NCBI GenBank assembly: GCA_002279065.1
Contig: NCKB01000002.1
Coordinates: forward strand, 310,001 to 374,000
DNA length: 64,000 nucleotides
Direction of reading: 5' to 3'
Source: Lysobacterales bacterium 15-68-25
GTDB taxonomy: Bacteria; Pseudomonadota; Gammaproteobacteria; Xanthomonadales; Rhodanobacteraceae
Of this stretch, positions 10,312-64,000 are shown piece after piece. Each line of letters begins with the position of its first letter. The stretch's first letter is position 1. The translations under genes and the position numbers were made by a program. The notes under the pieces were generated by a model, which was given only the letters and a program-made list of their open reading frames with translations, did no database searches and was not told where the DNA came from.

Positions 10312-10986
10312 ATGTTGCGTCCCATCGCCCTAGCCCTGGCACTGACCTTCGGTGCCGCGCTCGCCACTCCGGCGCTGGCGCAGGATCCCGCCCCGGCGGC
10401 GTCCGCGCAGCAGACCCCGGAACAGGTCGTGCAGACCATCGCGCACGACCTCGACACCACCATCGCCGGCCACCGCGATGAGCTGAAGAACAACAAGGAA
10501 AAGCTCATCGGCGTGATCGATGACATTTTCCTGCCGCACTTCGACATCGACTACGCCTCGATCCTGGTGCTCGGCCAGCACGCGCGCGAGGCCACGCCGG
10601 AGCAGCGCGAGCGCTTCGCCAAGGCGTTCTACAACTCGATCACCAACCGCTACGCGGAAGGCCTGCTGAACTACACCAAGGGCGCGGTGGTGGTGCTGCC
10701 GTTCAACGGCGACCTCAACAACAAGCGCACCGTAGTGCGCACCCAGGTGGTGCTGGAGGACGGCAAGAAGGTCGCCGTCGACTACGCCTTCCGCAGGACC
10801 CGCAGCGGCGAGTGGAAGGCCTACGACGTGATCATCGAGGGCATCTCCTACGTCACCAACTACCGCAACCAGGTGGATGCGGAGATCCGCAAGGTCGGCA
10901 TCGACAAGTTGATCACCAACCTGGAGACGCGCGGCGAGGACGCCCTGAAGTCGATGGAGCAGGACAGCAAGGCCAAGGCGCCGTGA
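10312..10986 (+). CDS. mlaC: MlaC, periplasmic phospholipid shuttle
   Basis: 224 residues from ATG 10312, chosen because GGAG lies eight bases upstream and the product then begins with a clean signal peptide ending ALAQD. An alternative GTG at 10273 would overlap the mlaD stop but adds 13 residues before the signal. The mature part is a Tol_Ttg2/MlaC domain with DIFLPHFDIDY and the conserved RYAEGLLNY region. It ferries phospholipids between MlaA at the outer membrane and MlaD. Confidence 0.93.
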   Translation: MLRPIALALALTFGAALATPALAQDPAPAASAQQTPEQVVQTIAHDLDTTIAGHRDELKNNKEKLIGVIDDIFLPHFDIDYASILVLGQHAREATPEQRERFAKAFYNSITNRYAEGLLNYTKGAVVVLPFNGDLNNKRTVVRTQVVLEDGKKVAVDYAFRRTRSGEWKAYDVIIEGISYVTNYRNQVDAEIRKVGIDKLITNLETRGEDALKSMEQDSKAKAP

Positions 10987-11288
10987 GCACGACCGGTTGC
11001 CGATTCGAAGCGCGGGCCGATGGTGCCCTGGCTGTGAGCGGCGTACTGACTTTCGATACCGCCAAGGAGGCCTGGCTGGAGTTGCGCGGGCGCGTGGCCG
11101 ATGCTTCCGCGAAGGTGCTCGATCTTTCCGCGGTGGAGCGCAGTGACAGTGCGGGCCTGGCTTGCGTGCTGGCGGTGCTGGCGGATGCCGGGAAGCGCGG
11201 TCAACGCCTCAAGGTGAGCGGTTTGCCTGCCGGCATGCGTCGCCTGGCGCAGGTCTGCGAAGTGGAGCCGCTGCTGGCGGCCGATTGA
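10983..11288 (+). CDS. mlaB: MlaB, STAS-domain subunit
   Basis: 101 residues from GTG 10983, overlapping the mlaC stop by four bases (GTGA). It is a single STAS domain with the VLDLSAVERSDSAGLACVL segment, whose D-S-A-G motif is typical of MlaB. In E. coli MlaB stabilises and activates the MlaF ATPase in the cytoplasm. It is the last gene of mlaFEDCB and is followed by a strong terminator. Confidence 0.92.
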   Translation: MSTTGCRFEARADGALAVSGVLTFDTAKEAWLELRGRVADASAKVLDLSAVERSDSAGLACVLAVLADAGKRGQRLKVSGLPAGMRRLAQVCEVEPLLAAD

Positions 11289-11313
11289 TCGGGCCAGCGC
11301 GGCTGGTCCACAT

Positions 11314-11344
11314 GAAAAAAGGCCCCTCGCGGGGCCTTTTTTTT
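11314..11344. terminator. Bidirectional terminator between mlaB and mlaA
   Basis: GGCCCC-TCGC-GGGGCC hairpin at 11321-11336 is flanked by six A (11315-11320) and eight T (11337-11344), so it has a U-tract on either strand. It ends mlaFEDCB rightward and mlaA leftward. Confidence 0.92.
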
Positions 11345-11360
11345 GCGTCAGTCCGGGAGG

Positions 11361-12203
11361 TCAGTGGCCGCCGGAGTCCTGCTCGCTCTGGTCCGGATGC
11401 TTGTTTTCCCACTGATGCTGTTCCTGCAGCAGCTCGTCGGGATCGAAGCCCTGCTGGTCCAGTCCCTGCAACTGGTCGATCACACTCGTCGGCGGGTTGC
11501 CGTCGTAGATCTTGTAGAGCCGGCGCTGGCGGTAGGCGTCGCGCACGAATACATACGGATCGTAGGCCGACTTGAGGAAGCTTTCCGCATCGAAGGCGCG
11601 CGAGCGCAGGTTCACCAGGTACACCAGCTGCGGGATGTACTGTTCGCCGTAGTGGTAGCTGTGGTTGCGCGCGTAGATCGTCAGCGGATCGAAGAAGTAG
11701 CCGTCGACCGGAATCTGCCAGAAGTCGCGTGCGGTGGTCGGGCCCAGGAACGGCAGCACCACGTAGTCGCCCTCGGGGACGCCCCAGCGGGCGAGGGTGA
11801 TGCCGAAGTCGGTTTCCTGCAGCGGCAGGCCGAGCGAGCTGGCCGGATCGAACAGGCCGCCGATGCCCAGCGTCAGGTTGACCAGGAAGCGTCCAGTGCT
11901 CTGCAGCGCCTGCTTGGGCCGGGCCTGCAGCAGGTCATTGGCCACGGTCACCGGCTGGCGCAGGTTGGTGAAGAAGTCGCCGATCGAGCGGCGCACCGGC
12001 GGATTGGTGATCTTGCGGTAGCCCACGGCTACCGGCCGGATCACCGCCTGGTCGACTGCGTCATTGAACGCGTAGACCTTCCGGTTGTATTTCTCCAGCG
12101 GATCGTCGGTGCGGGGCTTGGCGATGGCGCAGCCGGCAAGCAGCGACACCAGGCCGAGCGCGGCGATCCGGCGCAGCCATGACGGGGTATGGGGGAGGGG
12201 CAT
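11361..12203 (-). CDS. mlaA: MlaA/VacJ outer-membrane lipoprotein
   Basis: 280 residues from ATG 12203; the lipobox LLAGC follows a short hydrophobic signal. The MlaA core DPLEKYNRKVYAFND, the NLRQPVTVANDLLQ helix and WGVPEGDYVVLPFLGP block are all present. MlaA forms a ring in the outer membrane that removes mislocalised phospholipids from the outer leaflet and passes them to MlaC. In E. coli mlaA is unlinked to the other mla genes; here it is convergent with mlaFEDCB. The tail is Gln/Asp/His-rich and probably flexible. Confidence 0.95.
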   Translation of the reverse strand: MPLPHTPSWLRRIAALGLVSLLAGCAIAKPRTDDPLEKYNRKVYAFNDAVDQAVIRPVAVGYRKITNPPVRRSIGDFFTNLRQPVTVANDLLQARPKQALQSTGRFLVNLTLGIGGLFDPASSLGLPLQETDFGITLARWGVPEGDYVVLPFLGPTTARDFWQIPVDGYFFDPLTIYARNHSYHYGEQYIPQLVYLVNLRSRAFDAESFLKSAYDPYVFVRDAYRQRRLYKIYDGNPPTSVIDQLQGLDQQGFDPDELLQEQHQWENKHPDQSEQDSGGH

Positions 12204-12342
12204 CGGTGTGTAATCCGTTGCGGTGCCGGGTGGGGAAATCAAAAATTAAGTGTACCGTCGGGTTTTATATTATGCACGCGTTTCGCCGCGCTTTCGTCCT
12301 GAACCGGCGGCAGCCCAACCGGGCATGATACGTGCTGGCGCA

Positions 12343-12371
12343 TTGCCAGCAAAGCGTACGCTGGCTACACT
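12343..12371 (+). promoter_or_regulatory. Predicted sigma-70 promoter of rpoZ
   Basis: TTGCCA at 12343-12348 and TACACT at 12366-12371 are separated by exactly 17 bases and lie 41 bases upstream of the rpoZ ATG. This gives rpoZ-spoT their own promoter, independent of gmk. Confidence 0.6.
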
Positions 12372-12412
12372 GAACGACCTTCCAAAGTTGCTTCACCGCC
12401 TGAGGATTTCGC

Positions 12413-12703
12413 ATGGCACGCATTACCGTGGAAGACTGCCTTGAGGTGGTCGACAACCGTTTCGAGCTGGTGCTGATGGCGACCAAGCGCGCCCGCCAGC
12501 TGTCCAAGGGCGCCGAGCCGGCCGTCAATCCGGACCACGACAAGCCCACCGTGCTGGCGCTGCGCGAGATCGCCGATCGCCGCATCGACCAGGCGACCAT
12601 CGACGAGATCGACCGCGCCGAGCGCGAGCGGGCCGAGCGCGAGGCGCTGGAGTGGGCCGCTGCCGAAGTGGACGACGATCTCTCCAAGGGTGGGGACGAC
12701 TGA
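12413..12703 (+). CDS. rpoZ: RNA polymerase omega subunit
   Basis: 96 residues beginning MARITVEDC with [19 protein letters not shown], the conserved omega core that wraps the beta-prime C-terminus. A GAGG ribosome site precedes the ATG. Omega helps assemble RNA polymerase and forms part of a ppGpp-binding site, which fits its place just before spoT. The Glu/Arg-rich tail ([10 protein letters not shown]) is variable in the family. Confidence 0.96.
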
Positions 12704-12869
12704 GCATGAGCTGCGACGGCACCATGCGCTGCGCGAGGCCGGTGGCGGAAGCTGCCGGCCTTCGTGTTGGTGCCTGCTGCCGTCCGGTCGTTCCGCGCGG
12801 GGTGCATCTCTGAGCGGGCAGCGCATTCCCGCACCCGTCGCCGCGACGGATCCTTCGCAGGACGCGGCG

Positions 12870-14996
12870 TTGCCGGACTACGTCCTGGCCCTGAAAGACC
12901 GGCTCGCCTACCTCCCCGATGACCAGGTCGAGCGCGTCGTACGCGCGTTCCGCGTCGGTGCCCATGCCCACGCCGGACAGGCGCGCAAGAGCGGCGAGCC
13001 GTACATCACTCACCCGGTCGCCGTGGCCGGCATCCTCGCCGAACTCGGCCTGGACGCCGAAACCATCATCGCCGCGATCCTGCACGACACGCTGGAGGAC
13101 ACCCAGCTCGGTCGCGATGAGCTGGCCGGCGAGTTCGGCGAGACCGTGGCCGAGCTGGTCGACGGCGTCACCAAGCTGGACAAGATGAAATTCGGCAGCC
13201 GGCAGGAGGCCGACGCGGAGAGTTTCCGCAAGATGCTGCTGGCGATGGCCCGCGACATCCGGGTGATCCTGATCAAGCTGGCCGACCGGCTGCACAACAT
13301 GCGCACGCTGGGCGCGAAAGACACCTCCTCGCGCCGCCGTATCTCGCGCGAGACGCTGGAGATCTACGCGCCCATCGCGCAGCGGCTGGGCATGAACAAG
13401 TTCAAGGCCGAGCTGCAGGACCTGGGTTTCCGCGGCCTCTATCCGGATCGCTACCGCGTGATCAGCGAGCGCATCCGCGCGGCGCTGGGCAACCGGCGCG
13501 AGGCGATGGGCAAGATCGAGGCGGCGCTCACCCAGCGCCTCGCCTCCGAGCACATCGAGGCCCGCGTGGTCGGGCGCATCAAGTCGCCGTGGAGCATCTA
13601 TTCGAAGATGCGCAGCGAGCACAAGACGTTCGCGCAGCTGATGGATGTCTACGGCTTCCGCGTGGTGGTCGATACGGCGATGCGCTGCTACATGGCGCTG
13701 GGCGCCGTGCACACGCTCTACAAGCCGGTGGATCGCCGCTTCAAGGACTTCATCGCGATCCCCAAGGCCAACGGCTACCAGTCGCTGCACACCGTGCTGC
13801 TGGGGCCCTTCGGCGCACCGATCGAGGTGCAGATCCGCACCGCAGAGATGGACTCGGTGGCCGAGCGCGGCGTGGCTGCGCACTGGGCGTACAAGACCGA
13901 ATCCGGTCCGGCCAACAGCGCCCAGGTGCGGGCGCGCGAATGGCTGTCCGCGCTCGCCGACAGCCAGGCCAACACCGCCTCGTCGAGCGAGTTCATCGAG
14001 AACGTCAAGATCGACCTGTTTCCGGACGAGGTCTACCTGTTCACCCCGCGCGGCGACATTCTCTCGCTGCCGCGCAACGCCACTGCGCTGGACTTCGCCT
14101 ACGCCGTACACACCGACGTCGGCCATCACGCGGTGGCCGCGCGCGTGGACAAGAAGCTGGTGCCGCTGCGCACGCGACTGGAGTCCGGACAACTGGTGGA
14201 GATCATCACCGCGCCGTCGGCGGTGCCGAACCCGGCCTGGCTGGAATCGGTGGTGACCGGCAAGGCGCGTACGGCGATCCGCCAGTTCCTCAAGCACCTG
14301 CAGCACGAGGATGCGGTCGACTTCGGCCATCGCATGCTCGATCGTGCGCTCGATGCGCAGGGCTCGAGCCTGGACGGCATCGCCCCCGCGGTGCTCGACC
14401 GTTTCCTTGCCGAGGCCAAGCTGCACCGGCTGGAAGAACTGCTGGCCGACATCGCGCTGGGCAACCGCATGCCCGACGTGGTGGCCGCCCAGCTGGTGGC
14501 GGCGCGGGGCAAGAAGGCGTCCCGCGCCGTGGCGACGGCGGCGCCGAGCAGCGAGAAGATCCGCATCACCGGCGCCGAGCGTGGTGTGCTGAGCTTCGCC
14601 AACTGCTGCCATCCGCTGCCTGGCGACGAGATCGTCGGCTACCTGTCCGCCGGCAAGGGCATCGTGGTGCACCGTGAGGAGTGCCCGAACGTGGCCGAGC
14701 TGCGCAAGCAGCCGGAGCGTCGCGTGTCGATCGAATGGGACCGCGACGTGCAGGGCGACTACCGCGCCGAGCTGCGCATCGAGGTCATCAACCGCCCCGG
14801 TGTGCTGGCCACGGTGGCCTCGGCGATCGCGGACGCCGATTCCAACATCGAGAACGTGGAATACGTCGAGCGCGACGCTGCGGCCGCCACGCTGCTGTTC
14901 ACCATGGAAGTGAAGAGTCGCCGCCACCTGGCCGAGGTGATCCGCCGCGTGCGGCGCACCGGCGTGGTCAGCGCGGCGCACCGCTACCCGCTCTGA
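12870..14996 (+). CDS. spoT: Bifunctional (p)ppGpp synthetase/hydrolase SpoT
   Basis: The HD hydrolase site (AAILHDTLEDT) is intact, the synthetase domain has the RFKD motif typical of bifunctional enzymes and the conserved PKANGYQSLHT, and TGS and ACT domains follow (EVYLFTPRGDI; INRPGVLATVA). This makes it SpoT rather than the synthetase-only RelA. The start is uncertain: no ATG precedes the conserved region in frame. TTG 12870 has AGGA upstream and gives 708 residues aligning with the usual start; GTG 12690 inside rpoZ would give 768. The downstream boundary is firm. It makes and degrades the starvation alarmone. Confidence 0.94.
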   Translation: MPDYVLALKDRLAYLPDDQVERVVRAFRVGAHAHAGQARKSGEPYITHPVAVAGILAELGLDAETIIAAILHDTLEDTQLGRDELAGEFGETVAELVDGVTKLDKMKFGSRQEADAESFRKMLLAMARDIRVILIKLADRLHNMRTLGAKDTSSRRRISRETLEIYAPIAQRLGMNKFKAELQDLGFRGLYPDRYRVISERIRAALGNRREAMGKIEAALTQRLASEHIEARVVGRIKSPWSIYSKMRSEHKTFAQLMDVYGFRVVVDTAMRCYMALGAVHTLYKPVDRRFKDFIAIPKANGYQSLHTVLLGPFGAPIEVQIRTAEMDSVAERGVAAHWAYKTESGPANSAQVRAREWLSALADSQANTASSSEFIENVKIDLFPDEVYLFTPRGDILSLPRNATALDFAYAVHTDVGHHAVAARVDKKLVPLRTRLESGQLVEIITAPSAVPNPAWLESVVTGKARTAIRQFLKHLQHEDAVDFGHRMLDRALDAQGSSLDGIAPAVLDRFLAEAKLHRLEELLADIALGNRMPDVVAAQLVAARGKKASRAVATAAPSSEKIRITGAERGVLSFANCCHPLPGDEIVGYLSAGKGIVVHREECPNVAELRKQPERRVSIEWDRDVQGDYRAELRIEVINRPGVLATVASAIADADSNIENVEYVERDAAAATLLFTMEVKSRRHLAEVIRRVRRTGVVSAAHRYPL

Positions 14997-15071
14997 CCGG
15001 CGCTTGCCTCGGAAGGGGCGGGCGTCGCACGATGCGGCGCTTCGCGATCCTTCCCCGAACCGAGGTGTCCC

Positions 15072-15455
15072 ATGTCCCGCAGCATCATCGCCACCGACCA
15101 GGCGCCCGCCGCCATCGGCCCTTACTCGCAGGCCGTGCGCGCCGGGAACACCGTGTATTTTTCCGGGCAGATCCCGCTGGACCCGGCGACCGGCGCGCTG
15201 GTGCAGGGCGACATCCGCACGCAGACCCGTCGCGTGTTCGAAAACCTCACTGCCGTGGCGGCTGCGGCCGGTGGTTCGCTGGCGCAGATCGTGCGCGTGG
15301 GCATCTACGTCACCGACCTGGCGCATTTCGGCGAGGTCAACGCGGTGATGGCCGAGTATTTCGAGGCGCCGTATCCCGCCCGCTCGACGATCGAGGTCTC
15401 GGCGCTTCCGAAGGAGGCACAGGTCGAAGTCGATGCGGTGATGGTGCTCGACTGA
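15072..15455 (+). CDS. ridA: RidA-family enamine/imine deaminase
   Basis: 127 residues, the full RidA length. The family blocks [22 protein letters not shown] and the active-site region [15 protein letters not shown] with its conserved Arg and Glu are present. RidA hydrolyses reactive 2-aminoacrylate and related imines made by PLP enzymes such as serine/threonine dehydratase. It lies between spoT and recG, as in related genomes. Confidence 0.95.
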
Positions 15456-59217: not shown

Positions 59218-59291
59218 GCGGGTGTAGCTCAATGGTAGAGCTGTAGCTTCCCAAGCTACTGACGAGGGTTCGATTCCCTTCACCCGCTCCA
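59218..59291 (+). tRNA. tRNA-Gly (anticodon CCC)
   Basis: GCGGGTG pairs with CACCCGC; D arm GCTC/GAGC, anticodon stem GTAGC/GCTAC around loop TTCCCAA (anticodon CCC), and T arm GAGGG/CCCTT with TTCGATT complete a 74-base tRNA with encoded CCA. The integrase of a genomic island lies directly downstream in the same direction, so its 3' part is the probable attachment site. Confidence 0.97.
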
Positions 59292-59394: not shown

Positions 59395-60960
59395 ATGCCA
59401 AAGCCGTTGTTTCTGACCCGGCCTTCCGGGCTCTACGTTCGCTTCCTCGTACCTCACGACATGCGCAGCCGAGTCGGCTCGCGGTTTGTCGTGCGCCGTC
59501 TTCATTTGCCGCTTGGCGACCGCGCCAGACTCACGGCGGCATGGATGGGTGTGGCACTCTCGGAGGCGTTCGAGCGCTTGCGACAGGGGGTCGCGGTGGA
59601 TATCAAGAAGGTCGTAGACGACGTCCAAAGCGGCAACGCCCGCGACATCTTGTTGCGCAAAGTGGAGCTGCCCAACGGGGTGGTGCTGAGCGACGTCCAG
59701 GTCGACACGGAAGAGGACCAGCGCCAGCTTCAAGAGCTCATGCGCTATGCGACCGAGCAAGCCGGGCAGGCAACAACCAAGGCGCCGAAGCCCAAGGTCA
59801 AACCCGAAGAACGTCTGTCAGCCTTGATGGAAACCCATCTGGCAGACCTGACGCGGGCGGGGCGTGATGCCAAGACCGTGCTTGAAAGCCGGCACACCTT
59901 GAACCTGTTTGTCGGGGTGGTGGGGGATATCGCCGCGCACGAGCTCTATGGCAGTCACTGTCGCGCGTTCTTTGATGCGGTCAAACACTGGCCGAGGCAT
60001 GCCAGCGTGCGGCCCGAATTTGCTGGGCTATCAGTCAAGCAGGTCCTCGCCAAGGCCAAGAGCCTCAACGAGCCGGCGCTGTCGCAGCCCACCCTCAACA
60101 AGCACCGGCAGCGCCTGTCGGTGTTCTTGAATTGGCTTTTGAACAACAAGCACATCACCAGCAATCCCTTGGCCGGTGTGGTGAGTGTCAAAAAGCGGGA
60201 TGCGGAAGAAGAGACGGGGCGGCCCTTCACGCAAGCCGAGCTCGACGCCATCTTCGAGCCGACTGCGTTCAAGGCTTGGGCCGAAAAGCTGCCCCACCGT
60301 TGGTGGGTGCCGATGCTCGGGCTCTTCTCCGGCGCGCGCGTCAACGAGCTCAGCCAGCTCTACTTGGACGACATCGAGACCATCTCGGATGTGCCGGGCT
60401 TCCACATCAATCGGCGATTTGACGGACAAAAGATCAAGAACACGGCGTCCAGGCGCTTCGTGCCTCTCGCCAAGCCCCTCTTGGACGCGGGCTTCCTGGA
60501 CTACGTGGCCGAGGTGAAAAAGGCTGGGCATCAGCGCTTGTTCCCCCATCTGCCGAACAACGATGGCAACGGTTTCGGCAAGCAGATGAGCAAGCAGTTT
60601 GCCGTCTACATCAAGAAGCGCGGCATCAAGGATGACGGCATGGGCATGCATGCGTTCCGGCACACCTTGGCCACGCGGCTGGACCGTGCAGGCGTCTCGG
60701 AGAGTTCCATTGCTCGGATCACCGGCCACACACCCAGTGGCGGCATCTTGCCAAAGTTCTACATCGACCCACCGACCTTGGCCGAGCGCGTGGCGGTCTT
60801 GGCGAAATTCAACCCGGGCGTCACGTTGCCGAAGTACACCAAGGCCAAGTTCGAAGACGCGTTGAAGGAAGCGCGCCAACTGCCGGCGAAGTGGAAAGCC
60901 GAGAAGAGCTGGCGAGAGCGCCGGGCGAAGAAGGCACCGTTCAAGGCAGCGTCGAAGTGA
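59395..60960 (+). CDS. Tyrosine recombinase/integrase
   Basis: 521 residues. The N-terminus (LTRPSGLYVRFLVPHDMRS) is a DUF6538-like arm-binding domain, a SAM-like core-binding region follows, and the catalytic domain has the conserved Arg in LFSGARVNELSQL, the HAFRH box (H-x-x-R) and the region GHTPSGG...KFYI with the nucleophilic Tyr. It inserts and excises the island at the adjacent tRNA-Gly. No good ribosome site precedes the ATG. Coding use looks slightly less GC-rich than the core genes upstream. Confidence 0.93.
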   Translation: MPKPLFLTRPSGLYVRFLVPHDMRSRVGSRFVVRRLHLPLGDRARLTAAWMGVALSEAFERLRQGVAVDIKKVVDDVQSGNARDILLRKVELPNGVVLSDVQVDTEEDQRQLQELMRYATEQAGQATTKAPKPKVKPEERLSALMETHLADLTRAGRDAKTVLESRHTLNLFVGVVGDIAAHELYGSHCRAFFDAVKHWPRHASVRPEFAGLSVKQVLAKAKSLNEPALSQPTLNKHRQRLSVFLNWLLNNKHITSNPLAGVVSVKKRDAEEETGRPFTQAELDAIFEPTAFKAWAEKLPHRWWVPMLGLFSGARVNELSQLYLDDIETISDVPGFHINRRFDGQKIKNTASRRFVPLAKPLLDAGFLDYVAEVKKAGHQRLFPHLPNNDGNGFGKQMSKQFAVYIKKRGIKDDGMGMHAFRHTLATRLDRAGVSESSIARITGHTPSGGILPKFYIDPPTLAERVAVLAKFNPGVTLPKYTKAKFEDALKEARQLPAKWKAEKSWRERRAKKAPFKAASK

Positions 60961-61712: not shown

Positions 61713-62342
61713 CTATCTCGGTTGGTTAAACATTCTGAGAGCGAGCACAAAAAAGTCACCGAGACCAATGAAGTCTGACAGAGGCTTCCCTTGGTCTGAT
61801 CTCGTTATCTTCAACTCGTCTAGCTCAGCTCCACCACTCTTCTTGGAGCTCACTCGCAAACCGTGAGCACAGGAATCCCGGATGACCATAGCCATTTGAG
61901 CGGTCTCATGGTTCAGCCGTCTCGCTTTTGCCTGGTTTTGTTCAAAGAACTCTACGAAACCAGCCGCCACCGTGAGCCACATCCAACGGCGAATGCCCGT
62001 TGCCCAGCCTTCGTTCTTTCTAGGCTCCTTGCGCCAAACGAGGCTGACCTGCACCCATGGCGGGTCTCCCCCTGGTTGCTCCTTGACGTGCTTTACCATT
62101 CCATAGGCTGGAAGGTGAACGGTTAGGTCGTGAGCCTTACAGGCCAAGCTAAGATAGCCATCTTTGGGAATTGGCTGGTTGTCAATGGCGCATACAGCGA
62201 TCGTCATCGCATCGATCGAAAGGCACATATGCCATATGAACGGATACGCCGGGTGTCTCGAATACACCTCGTATGACTCCATGCCTACCATGCTGTATTC
62301 ACGCGCGAGTTCGCCAACCTTTGCTTCAAGGTCTAGCGGCAT
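61713..62342 (-). CDS. Unknown protein with a HEPN-like RX4H motif, downstream of hxsA
   Basis: 209 residues with AAGGAG before ATG 62342. The C-terminal region contains VIRDSCAHGLRV, where Arg155 and His160 are four residues apart; this RX4-6H arrangement followed by Gly is the hallmark of HEPN domains, many of which are RNases in defence or toxin systems. The N-terminal half has no recognised motif. The gene follows hxsA in the same direction with a 63-base gap, so it may be the last gene of the hxs operon or a separate island gene. The HEPN call is tentative. Confidence 0.6.
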   Translation of the reverse strand: MPLDLEAKVGELAREYSMVGMESYEVYSRHPAYPFIWHMCLSIDAMTIAVCAIDNQPIPKDGYLSLACKAHDLTVHLPAYGMVKHVKEQPGGDPPWVQVSLVWRKEPRKNEGWATGIRRWMWLTVAAGFVEFFEQNQAKARRLNHETAQMAMVIRDSCAHGLRVSSKKSGGAELDELKITRSDQGKPLSDFIGLGDFFVLALRMFNQPR

Positions 62343-62405: not shown

Positions 62406-62984
62406 TCATGGTCCCAGCGCGACGCCCAGCGCGTTCAATGTCGCTGTGGTCATCTTCGAGTTCGCAGGCAACCCATGCGCGCCCTGGAACTTGGCCAACG
62501 CCAGCTTCGTTTCTGAGGTCATCACGCCATCGATGGCGCCGGGATCATAGCCCTTGGAATACAAGGCCGCTTGAACCCGCATGATCATCATCTTCAATTG
62601 GTCGCCGGTTGCACGAGTGGCGTTCGGTGAGACCAGTGGTGCCACGCTTGGGCCAAGGTCGGGCATGGTTGAAGGAGCCGGGGCAGGCGCTGGCGCGGGC
62701 CTATAAGCCGGGGTGTAGGAGGGCGTGTACACAGGGGCCGCGCGGTACGAGCCGCCACTGCCGGAGCTGTGCGATGCATGAGAGGCATGCGAGCTATGGG
62801 AGGCGTGGCTTGCGTACATGTTGTGGATGTTGACGTTTAGCGGCGCGGCGAGCGTCACGGTGAAGTCCGCATCTCGAATGGCCATGTCGGTCAGATGAGC
62901 TGTGGTCGCAGCTCGGTCGGCGCTGTGTGCGGCGCCTTGGGCAGCGGCAAGCGCCGCTCCGGTGAGAGCTAGTGACTTGCGCAT
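62406..62984 (-). CDS. hxsA: His-Xaa-Ser repeat protein HxsA
   Basis: 192 residues from ATG 62984, with AAGGAG upstream. A weak signal-peptide-like N-terminus (about 1-21) is followed by a short unique region and then five consecutive His-Xaa-Ser triplets (HAS HSS HAS HAS HSS, about residues 60-74). A Gly/Ser/Tyr/Pro-rich linker then leads to a C-terminal peptidoglycan-binding domain (ALYSKGYDPGAIDG; LALAKFQGAHGLP). This matches HxsA, the presumed substrate of two radical SAM maturases. The protein probably ends up in the periplasm at the wall. It overlaps hxsC by 16 bases. Confidence 0.88.
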   Translation of the reverse strand: MRKSLALTGAALAAAQGAAHSADRAATTAHLTDMAIRDADFTVTLAAPLNVNIHNMYASHASHSSHASHASHSSGSGGSYRAAPVYTPSYTPAYRPAPAPAPAPSTMPDLGPSVAPLVSPNATRATGDQLKMMIMRVQAALYSKGYDPGAIDGVMTSETKLALAKFQGAHGLPANSKMTTATLNALGVALGP

Positions 62985-64000
62985 GAGTAGGTCTCCTTGA
63001 TCGGCATGATGCTTCGGCTGGTCCATTCCGGCGTAACCCAGGCAAACAGGCCGCCGCATCTTGTTCGTACCTCGCAGGCTTCGCATGCCGGCAGGTAGTG
63101 CTGCTTCCAATCGGAAATGCTGCGTTTGGCAAAGGGCCAAAGCGGCTTGGGCAAGGTGCAAAGGGGTAGGTTGTAGAGGGAGACCCTCAGGTCACGAGCC
63201 GACAAGAACTCTACGGCCTCAGTGAGTTCCGCCTGCATGTCGGCGGGGTCGATCCACAGCTCGTCTCGGTGTGCTTTGGCAAAGCCCGTGGGCTCCGTGC
63301 CCATCAGTGCGATGTGCTCGATGAACGGGAAATTGCGGTAGATGAAGCGGGCCAGCTCCGGCAGGCGGGCGACAACTGGCTTGACCAAGACGACGCGGAT
63401 CTCGATGCGTTGCTTGGCTTCTTCCAAGGCGTAAAGCCCGCGAACTGTTTCCGCAAAAGCGCCCGAGCTTTGGACGATGTAGTCATGCAGGGCGTAGTGG
63501 TCCGCATACAGCGGCACGGCCCAGATGAGGGAAGGGTGCGGCGCGACGAATGTGCTTGCCGGCGCTTCCTTGCCGAAGTTTCGACCGTTGGACAGCACCT
63601 GGATGTGCGTCTGCGGAAGGTGCGCGGCGCAATGTTCAATGACGCGCCTAAGCCCTTGGCCCAGCAAGGTGGGTTCGCCGCCCGTGATGGTGAGCTGGCT
63701 GGTATCCCTGTCGATAAGTTCGACCAGGTCGCACAGATGCTGGACGCGCCAGTCGTCTTGGATGTCCCTTGGCGGCTGCGAGCACATCACACAAAAGCTG
63801 TTGCAGCGCTCAGTGGCAAAGAGGATGTTGTTGTTCCCGCCCCGCCGATACCGCCGCGCCACTTTGTGTGTTTCAGGCCGCACTTCGATCGCATCGCCAG
63901 CCGCTACGGCCAAGCCATCGGGAGGGAGGGCCACCCAAGGTCTTCCGTTGGGTGCCTGCTCGGGCTCATCGACCAAGAAACCGGCCCAGGGCAGGGCGGC
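62969..64000 (-). CDS. hxsC: Radical SAM maturase of the His-Xaa-Ser system, HxsC-like, 5' end beyond window
   Basis: The frame is open to the window edge; 343 codons are visible ending at TAG 62969. Counting from a TTG at 63976 that is unlikely to be the start, Cys58-x3-Cys62-x2-Cys65 (CNSFCVMC) binds the SAM-cleaving 4Fe-4S cluster and TGGEPTL at about 98-104 contacts SAM. The C-terminal part has CEACEVRTRCGG, an auxiliary-cluster-type Cys group, and a final Cys near the end. The direct overlap with hxsA identifies it as one of the two Hxs maturases; HxsC is favoured over HxsB from sequence style. It should form a C-C or C-S type crosslink or modification on HxsA residues, chemistry unknown. 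Confidence 0.85.
   Translation of the reverse strand, partial: AALPWAGFLVDEPEQAPNGRPWVALPPDGLAVAAGDAIEVRPETHKVARRYRRGGNNNILFATERCNSFCVMCSQPPRDIQDDWRVQHLCDLVELIDRDTSQLTITGGEPTLLGQGLRRVIEHCAAHLPQTHIQVLSNGRNFGKEAPASTFVAPHPSLIWAVPLYADHYALHDYIVQSSGAFAETVRGLYALEEAKQRIEIRVVLVKPVVARLPELARFIYRNFPFIEHIALMGTEPTGFAKAHRDELWIDPADMQAELTEAVEFLSARDLRVSLYNLPLCTLPKPLWPFAKRSISDWKQHYLPACEACEVRTRCGGLFAWVTPEWTSRSIMPIKETYSCASH

Follow-up and report, generated by a model that had tools for sequence, protein, structure and literature searches.

The 64,000-nucleotide stretch of DNA analysed here (the window) ends inside an Hxs (His-Xaa-Ser) locus, and it is near certain that this locus is a complete Hxs system, organised as one operon in the order D-B-C-A and carried as cargo by an integrative island at a tRNA-Gly gene. 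Hxs represents mobile cargo, and the island that bears it here also harbours a CBASS. The Hxs system was reportedly first described by Haft and Basu. Like the system covered by NCBIfam models TIGR03976-TIGR03979, the locus features four genes, H-x-S repeats, a peptidoglycan-binding domain, and two radical SAM enzymes; an HxsD scoring just under the TIGR03976 cut-off is the one difference found. Within Hxs, the locus is a typical representative of the branch with D-B-C-A order and long HxsA. The preliminary description of this DNA held that Hxs has no determined product, in agreement with literature searches covering titles, abstract openings, and passages, in which no report of a product was found by title or abstract opening. 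Passages of one paper name HxsB among previously annotated enzymes and mention the motif (PMC9062424).

At the window's end, the preliminary description had noted a radical SAM gene with CxxxCxxC and a C-terminal Cys cluster overlapping the gene for the H-x-S protein, and had expected the missing partners hxsB and hxsD nearby. The radical SAM gene is hxsC (62969..64159, minus strand), a maturase gene whose ATG at 64159 is located 159 bases beyond the window end at 64000 and whose 3' end overlaps hxsA by 16 nt. With the contig followed to its end, both partners lie directly upstream in the order hxsD-hxsB-hxsC-hxsA, with hxsB at 64159-65655 and hxsD at 65652-65951 (extrapolated window coordinates, both minus strand). 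HxsC passes TIGR03977 with 370.5 bits (cut-off 267.9), HxsB passes TIGR03978 with 550.4 bits (cut-off 370), and HxsA passes TIGR03979 with 144.4 bits (cut-off 121.65). HxsD reaches 47.9 bits against the TIGR03976 cut-off of 50 (E=1.3e-12) and occupies the expected position in the operon. The TIGR03977 and TIGR03979 searches had been proposed as a check on the two proteins first seen; each is over its cut-off, and neither outcome named as refuting the Hxs reading occurred. Furthermore, the CxxxCxxC of HxsC (C119, C123, C126) and its C-terminal C334, C359, C362, and C368 are invariant in all 24 aligned HxsC, as are the CxxxCxxC of HxsB and its C-terminal C421, C424, C430, and C454 in 28/28 HxsB. 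D66, R70, and T77 of HxsD are invariant in an alignment with 24 others.

The hxsA gene (62406..62984, minus strand) encodes a protein of 192 aa comprising a hydrophobic N-terminus, the H-x-S block, a Pro-rich linker, and a peptidoglycan-binding domain, as judged by TIGR03979 and by alignment. The reading frame drawn earlier, 62406-63161, begins at an upstream TTG; the likelier start is the ATG at 62984, since the D. ginsengisoli homologue starts at the same residue. The five H-x-S triplets and the peptidoglycan-binding domain announced for this protein are both present. The triplets, which are the predicted modification sites, lie at 62763..62807 on the minus strand (residues 60-74, HASHSSHASHASHSS), and the PG_binding_1 domain lies at 62427..62579 on the same strand (PF01471, E=6.6e-11). 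Five consecutive H-x-S occur a single time across the six frames of the window and in 0 of 200 mononucleotide shuffles. When 25 HxsA are aligned, only seven columns are invariant, all of them His or Ser of the H-x-S block.

HxsA was also proposed to be exported and anchored to the wall. The export part is backed by an N-terminal hydrophobic segment with a net positive start, a signature suggestive of export that was found in 20/25 HxsA vs 0/28 HxsB and 0/25 HxsD by a crude hydropathy score rather than a signal-peptide predictor. In Xanthomonadales HxsA the putative signal is short and, judged by eye, lacks a clear cleavage site, and the hydropathy score gave no export signal in the HxsA of one relative (L051). 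Anchoring fits the window HxsA. However, by alignment the peptidoglycan-binding region occurs in 19/25 HxsA, the other six being short forms that stop at or near the repeats; Pfam was run on the window HxsA alone and the region was judged from the alignment in the others. As the region is missing from six of these 25 HxsA, the window protein being among the 25, anchoring cannot be essential to Hxs. Regarding gene order, hxsA lies 5' of hxsB in the six cases without the region and 3' of it in the 19 others. A strict link between gene order and HxsA architecture was considered and dropped, as a Hymenobacter plasmid has an annotated peptidoglycan-binding gene upstream of hxsD.

The claim that the locus lies on a genomic island is borne out by a synteny break at tRNA-Gly and by repeats at both junctions. 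The integration site is a tRNA-Gly(CCC) gene at 59218..59291 (plus strand, ARAGORN), whose end forms the 22-bp direct repeat attL (59270..59291, plus strand). The second copy of this tRNA end, attR, is found at about 344641-344662 on another contig (C10) of the same genome. The 22-bp repeat is perfect, hence the insertion has both its ends and the assembly break falls inside it. Next to attL is the tyrosine integrase of the island (59395..60960, plus strand; PF00589, E=4.6e-9). Just 3' of hxsA there is a 209-aa orphan gene (61713..62342, minus strand) that is unmatched in Pfam, NCBIfam, and PADLOC at E<=0.001. Three genomes of the same genus match the window at 86-87%, and in 3/3 the match ends at the tRNA 3' end or 11 bases beyond; their compared stretches contain no match to the rest of the window or to the contig beyond. 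After the tRNA, two of them (G987 and G1006) continue with sequence that the source genome has on contig C10, and both lack hxsB, while the third (G1036) has hxs at a different place. Moreover, the sequenced left arm of the island has a G+C of 59.7%, vs 68.5% in the chromosomal part of the window.

An E2-type CBASS, recognised by PADLOC, adjoins the hxs operon on the same island; the preliminary description mentions neither it nor the broader tie of Hxs to prophages, plasmids, and islands. In extrapolated window coordinates, a RadC-type JAB gene (66321-66806, plus strand; Pfam/PADLOC searches) is followed by the ORF of a CBASS patatin phospholipase (66886-67995, E=3.1e-110), the E2 (67671-68381, E=3.5e-39), and the CD-NTase (68384-69640, cyclase E=3.1e-145), the last three on the minus strand. 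The E2 and patatin ORFs (11672-12382 and 10887-11996 of locus L002) overlap by about 300 bases, and the homology of the E2 is confined to residues 3-149 of 236. The right arm of the island, on contig C10 (L115), carries, at 10485-15145 on the minus strand, a C39-peptidase ABC exporter beside an MvdD-type ATP-grasp protein (E=1.3e-6) and, by eye, a HlyD-like ORF; this region is possibly a second RiPP cluster, of the graspetide type. Close to attR, a PIN7-domain protein lies near a DEAD/ResIII helicase (L115 3374-6983, minus strand) and could be part of another defence pair.

Beyond the source genome, islands, plasmids, and P2-like prophages carry Hxs as cargo, which is the new observation made here. 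At E<=1e-60, HxsB was found in 15/398 genomes of a phylum sample, 5/369 of a class sample, and 16/299 of an order sample, samples that overlap and each count the source genome. At E<=1e-30, relatives of HxsB occur in 410 of 72,556 plasmid records, 317 of the 410 being Klebsiella. Two of 50,697 phage records hold HxsB, and one of them is a Leptospira phage with all four hxs genes annotated. A Klebsiella hxs query, which misses distant forms, matched 153 of 5,426 complete E. coli genomes, in all cases on the chromosome; 15/153 matches cover <80% of the query. Two pattern-based scans of IMG/VR yielded 14 distinct contigs with hxs; in three, P2-like tail genes stand beside hxs, and an ogr gene is also visible in two. 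Passages of a further paper place hxs genes among those that adjoin mobile-element genes in P. aeruginosa (PMC8446631). The HxsB tree has long branches and unsure joins and was left out as evidence of transfer.

Five E. coli loci were viewed. Two are islands, one at tRNA-Thr beside proAB and one at ssrA that holds LmuB. LmuB also occurs in a tRNA-Ile region, together with a relaxase fragment and a Pycsar cyclase; the remaining two are a P2-like prophage and an element bearing relaxase and ParB genes. In the prophage, the hxs cassette lies between an ogr-like gene and a VgrG/Pvc8-family gene, the latter in the gpD position. The setting recalls the antiviral hotspots of P2/P4 phages, which likewise place compact, variable cargo in P2-like prophages, but the hotspot described in the passages of that paper is the A-Q site, and the E. 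coli cassette sits elsewhere; the word "Xaa" is absent from its main text (PMC9122126). Tn7-like genes are also seen near hxs, as TnsD and TniQ domains in D. ginsengisoli (L017 1158-2627) and, by annotation, on the Aeromonas plasmid pAsa4 (L066 16376-23440). In one genome (G1019, contig C12) hxs is present twice, as operons some 100 kb from each other that both hold A, B, C, and D (L054, L056). Directly 3' of hxsA, a DUF6119 or TIGR04141-family gene is annotated in three enterobacterial loci (L107, L113, L114) and recognised by resemblance in a fourth (L042). DUF6119 has one match among 147 hxs neighbour proteins, and the genes of this type in L042 and L113 have no PADLOC match.

The cassette itself is self-contained. 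Among 34 loci including that of the window, the only families in at least 20 are hxsB (34), hxsC (32), hxsA (22), and hxsD (20), and the next commonest neighbour family, an integrase, occurs in 5/34; these counts come from simple gene calls and are lower bounds. Self-containment follows from the fact that no family besides hxsA-D is found in more than five loci. A narrow home-made integrase model, which missed three of its five seeds, matched 5/31 hxs loci vs 1/28 control regions.

HxsA was found in 36 of the 38 loci examined (some of them the same place twice), giving 26 distinct period-3 His chains. Ser stands at +2 of all 149 chain His, including the last His in 26/26, and before the first His in 5/26 chains, so the repeat unit is H-x-S. 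The ORFs were chosen for two adjacent H-x-S units, and part of the Ser count is therefore selection, the Ser of the last unit excepted. The X of the 149 units is S in 67, R in 39, A in 21, Y in 17, T in 2, and W, V, and E in 1 each. The last X is Y in 13/26 chains vs 4/123 at other units (e.g. L019, L020, L055), an excess in the final triplet that looks as if the terminal unit were treated differently.

According to the passages of PMC11002830 drawn on here, three-residue cyclophane synthases link residue i to i+2. With MscB the bond runs from Phe to the Ser C-beta, and with HaaB and YhhB it runs from His C2 to a C-beta. Such chemistry would call for a strict H-x-S unit in which X is free, and with these known i to i+2 synthases in view we predict tandem His-Ser links, i.e. 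tandem His-Ser cyclophanes in HxsA. HxsB would bind the HxsA leader via its N-terminal RRE-like domain, and its radical SAM and SPASM clusters would join each His (i) to Ser (i+2), probably through a bond between imidazole C2 and Ser C-beta, so that the repeats become a rigid string of three-residue cyclophanes. As the second radical SAM enzyme, HxsC may complete or edit the series, and HxsD may be a small dedicated helper. The modified full-length HxsA would then be exported by its N-terminal hydrophobic signal and, in the window version, held at the peptidoglycan. The product is probably the HxsA protein itself rather than a diffusible peptide, since the cassette is not accompanied by any exporter, protease or immunity gene.

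In the HxsB model (mean pLDDT 83), three strands and two helices precede the barrel (E20-25, E28-36, E41-45, H46-53, H62-69), an arrangement that we take to match the topology of an RRE domain. The alignment of the model with the peptide maturase 5wgg spans 488 columns (E=3.5e-18), and that with TigE 8vpo 493. HxsD was considered as a leader binder of the PqqD/RRE type and rejected, as its fold model (mean pLDDT 90) is beta-alpha-beta-beta-alpha, a non-RRE arrangement; it has no PDB match at E<=0.001. The models thus fit an RRE-like topology that belongs to the HxsB N-terminus and not to HxsD.

After 5wgg, the solved proteins next closest to HxsB in sequence are anaerobic sulfatase maturases (4k37, E=1.6e-20; also Foldseek ranks 4-11), enzymes that oxidise Ser or Cys. 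This kinship speaks for a modification other than a cyclophane, such as Ser to formylglycine or another single-residue change, with the repeats serving as independent sites. We consider such chemistry rather unlikely, since the spacing of His and Ser is fixed and neither residue changes, in contrast to X, a pattern that suits a two-residue reaction better than a Ser-only one. Homology does not fix the reaction, as the profile relatives of HxsB span several reaction types far below their cut-offs: apart from its own model, none is near cut-off among the best 25 of 33 NCBIfam families. The triceptide models in particular match weakly (YhhB 51.1 of 445 bits, GrrM/OscB 45 of 310, XyeB 34.7 of 450). 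Triceptide systems (XncB, OscB, MscB, HaaB, YhhB) nevertheless share with the cyclophane reading of Hxs a radical SAM-SPASM enzyme and a precursor with an aromatic residue at i and an acceptor at i+2. They differ in that Hxs has a second radical SAM enzyme (hxsC in 32/34 loci) and often HxsD too. His donors and a Ser acceptor are on record for triceptide synthases in the passages cited above (PMC11002830), whereas the Hxs product is one that we infer.

The genes around hxs were compared with controls. Up to three genes on each side of 25 hxs loci gave 147 proteins, and 23 of 25 control regions from the same genomes, two having been dropped, gave 138. Since the codon-model gene caller missed foreign genes and long ORFs were added, the 147-protein set has some doubtful ORFs; it also includes at least five HxsD at first taken for other neighbours. 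By our own count, 8/25 hxs loci have a PADLOC-supported defence gene and 17/25 are without one. The eight are the window locus with its CBASS, L017 with a SAVED/Cap4-like NACHT protein (E=9.6e-13), L018 with Thoeris ThsB and an AriA-like ATPase (ThsA and another ThsB follow slightly further out), L022 with a weakly matching TIR protein (E=1.4e-11), L040 with PDC-S65, L048 with RT_II-A and NDT_II-A, L051 with AbiLi and AbiEi, and L060 with PDC-S52. In both sets, the proteins to be resolved individually were picked by eye; the first ten hxs neighbours all matched, some weakly, a further ten gave 3/10, and control proteins gave 5/10. The five control matches are a helicase scoring as DpdJ (2124 bits), which we take to be the housekeeping Lhr, a PolA-like protein, a DnaG-like protein, a radical SAM protein, and a NYN protein that matched as HEC-09. 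A MzaA match among hxs neighbours (E=2.2e-76) was left out of the counts, as were the mad2, C3a194, and HEC-02A matches and most of the mad3, mad8, and AriA matches among controls; the sole mad3/mad8 control match resolved is an ABC transporter ATPase. At 1e-10, 136 PADLOC families matched hxs neighbours vs 31 for controls, the best 25 of each being viewed, with one protein able to match many models.

Set against 1/23 control regions, the 8/25 hxs loci give a Fisher one-sided p of 0.016, and against 2/23, with the helicase counted, 0.05. Removal of the window locus leaves 7/24 (p=0.028 or 0.078, vs 1 or 2/23), and removal of the weak TIR match as well leaves 6/24 (p=0.055 or 0.14). With all five resolved control matches counted, housekeeping genes included, 8/25 vs 5/23 gives p=0.32 and the difference is gone. 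An enrichment of defence genes beside hxs is at most suggestive, an association whose statistics hinge on judgement. Hand-picked records, the five E. coli loci among them, lean in the same direction, though without a control. Among eight such plasmid regions, four hold a defence gene, namely Qat and AbiE (by annotation), IetS, and Gabija. The other four, from Nostoc, Klebsiella, Paraburkholderia, and Aeromonas pAsa4, show no defence gene by name; the Klebsiella region holds resistance genes and IS elements, that of Paraburkholderia toxin-antitoxin genes, and pAsa4 a lone restriction subunit and Tn7-like genes.

These figures bear on whether Hxs is a mere passenger. Islands, plasmids, and prophages hold genes of many kinds, and defence neighbours would say nothing of function if mobile elements simply gather unrelated cargo. 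Decayed copies exist, one being a hxsC stub with no hxsA (L021) and two having a short hxsB (L063, L064), some E. coli matches are partial (the 15/153 noted above), and the enrichment for defence genes is no longer significant once the counts are made stricter or wider. Yet a defence neighbour in 8/25 vs 1 or 2/23 loci (p=0.016 or 0.05, on our own reading) and the recurrent P2-like prophage position of hxs are less expected of neutral cargo. We regard the passenger reading as a serious contender, somewhat short of an even chance.

A role in metal handling was also weighed, with HxsA as an envelope binder of copper, zinc or nickel whose modified imidazoles chelate and which is carried as metal tolerance. 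The HxsA chain is dense in His, and on the single Klebsiella plasmid viewed, hxs and a chromate efflux gene are about 11 kb apart. In the passages cited, the His-crosslinked lanthipeptide noursin binds copper and needs its crosslink to do so (PMC10206099). However, with no family beyond hxs in more than 5/34 loci, no metal gene travels with the cassette; no metal resistance family by name is seen among the best 25 of 95 Pfam families matched by the 147 neighbours, and Ser is an unusual conserved partner for simple chelation. A metal role hence appears doubtful. Antibacterial activity is known among radical SAM cross-linked RiPPs, darobactin being one (PMC9055067), and HxsA could by analogy be a peptide antagonistic to other bacteria. 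This is very improbable in our judgement, as the same 5/34 ceiling excludes a conserved exporter, protease or immunity gene beside hxs, and in the window HxsA and other long forms the repeats precede a linker and a wall-binding domain.

The role is the least certain step of the proposed scheme. Hxs would give a host a trait brought by mobile elements, most likely protection at the envelope through phage or superinfection exclusion. As a hypothesis, an exported, often wall-bound, and probably rigid repeat protein on prophages and islands suits exclusion of phage at the envelope. Taken whole, the explanation favoured here (Hxs on an island, His-Ser cyclophanes, export, and envelope protection) is to us nearly as probable as not. 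The narrower proposal, in which Hxs acts at the envelope as an unrecognised anti-phage or superinfection-exclusion system on mobile elements, cites as its carriers the P2-like prophages, the Leptospira phage, plasmids, Tn7-like neighbourhoods, and tRNA islands; we think it unlikely. In that case, a rigid poly-cyclophane HxsA might block phage DNA entry or sense wall damage. PADLOC has no model that matches HxsA or HxsD, and gives HxsB and HxsC weak pVip matches only. Besides this weak pVip match of HxsC (E=7.2e-8), Hxs has the radical SAM fold in common with prokaryotic viperins. Viperins act on nucleotides, whereas family assignment makes HxsB and HxsC peptide maturases, as does the fold in the case of HxsB.

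Hxs is widespread on plasmids and E. coli chromosomes, yet no report of its product or role was found in the titles, abstract openings, and passages searched. If the anti-phage proposal is true, Hxs would be a defence effector built by radical SAM peptide chemistry. More broadly, if its role is protection, radical SAM peptide chemistry would join bacterial immunity.
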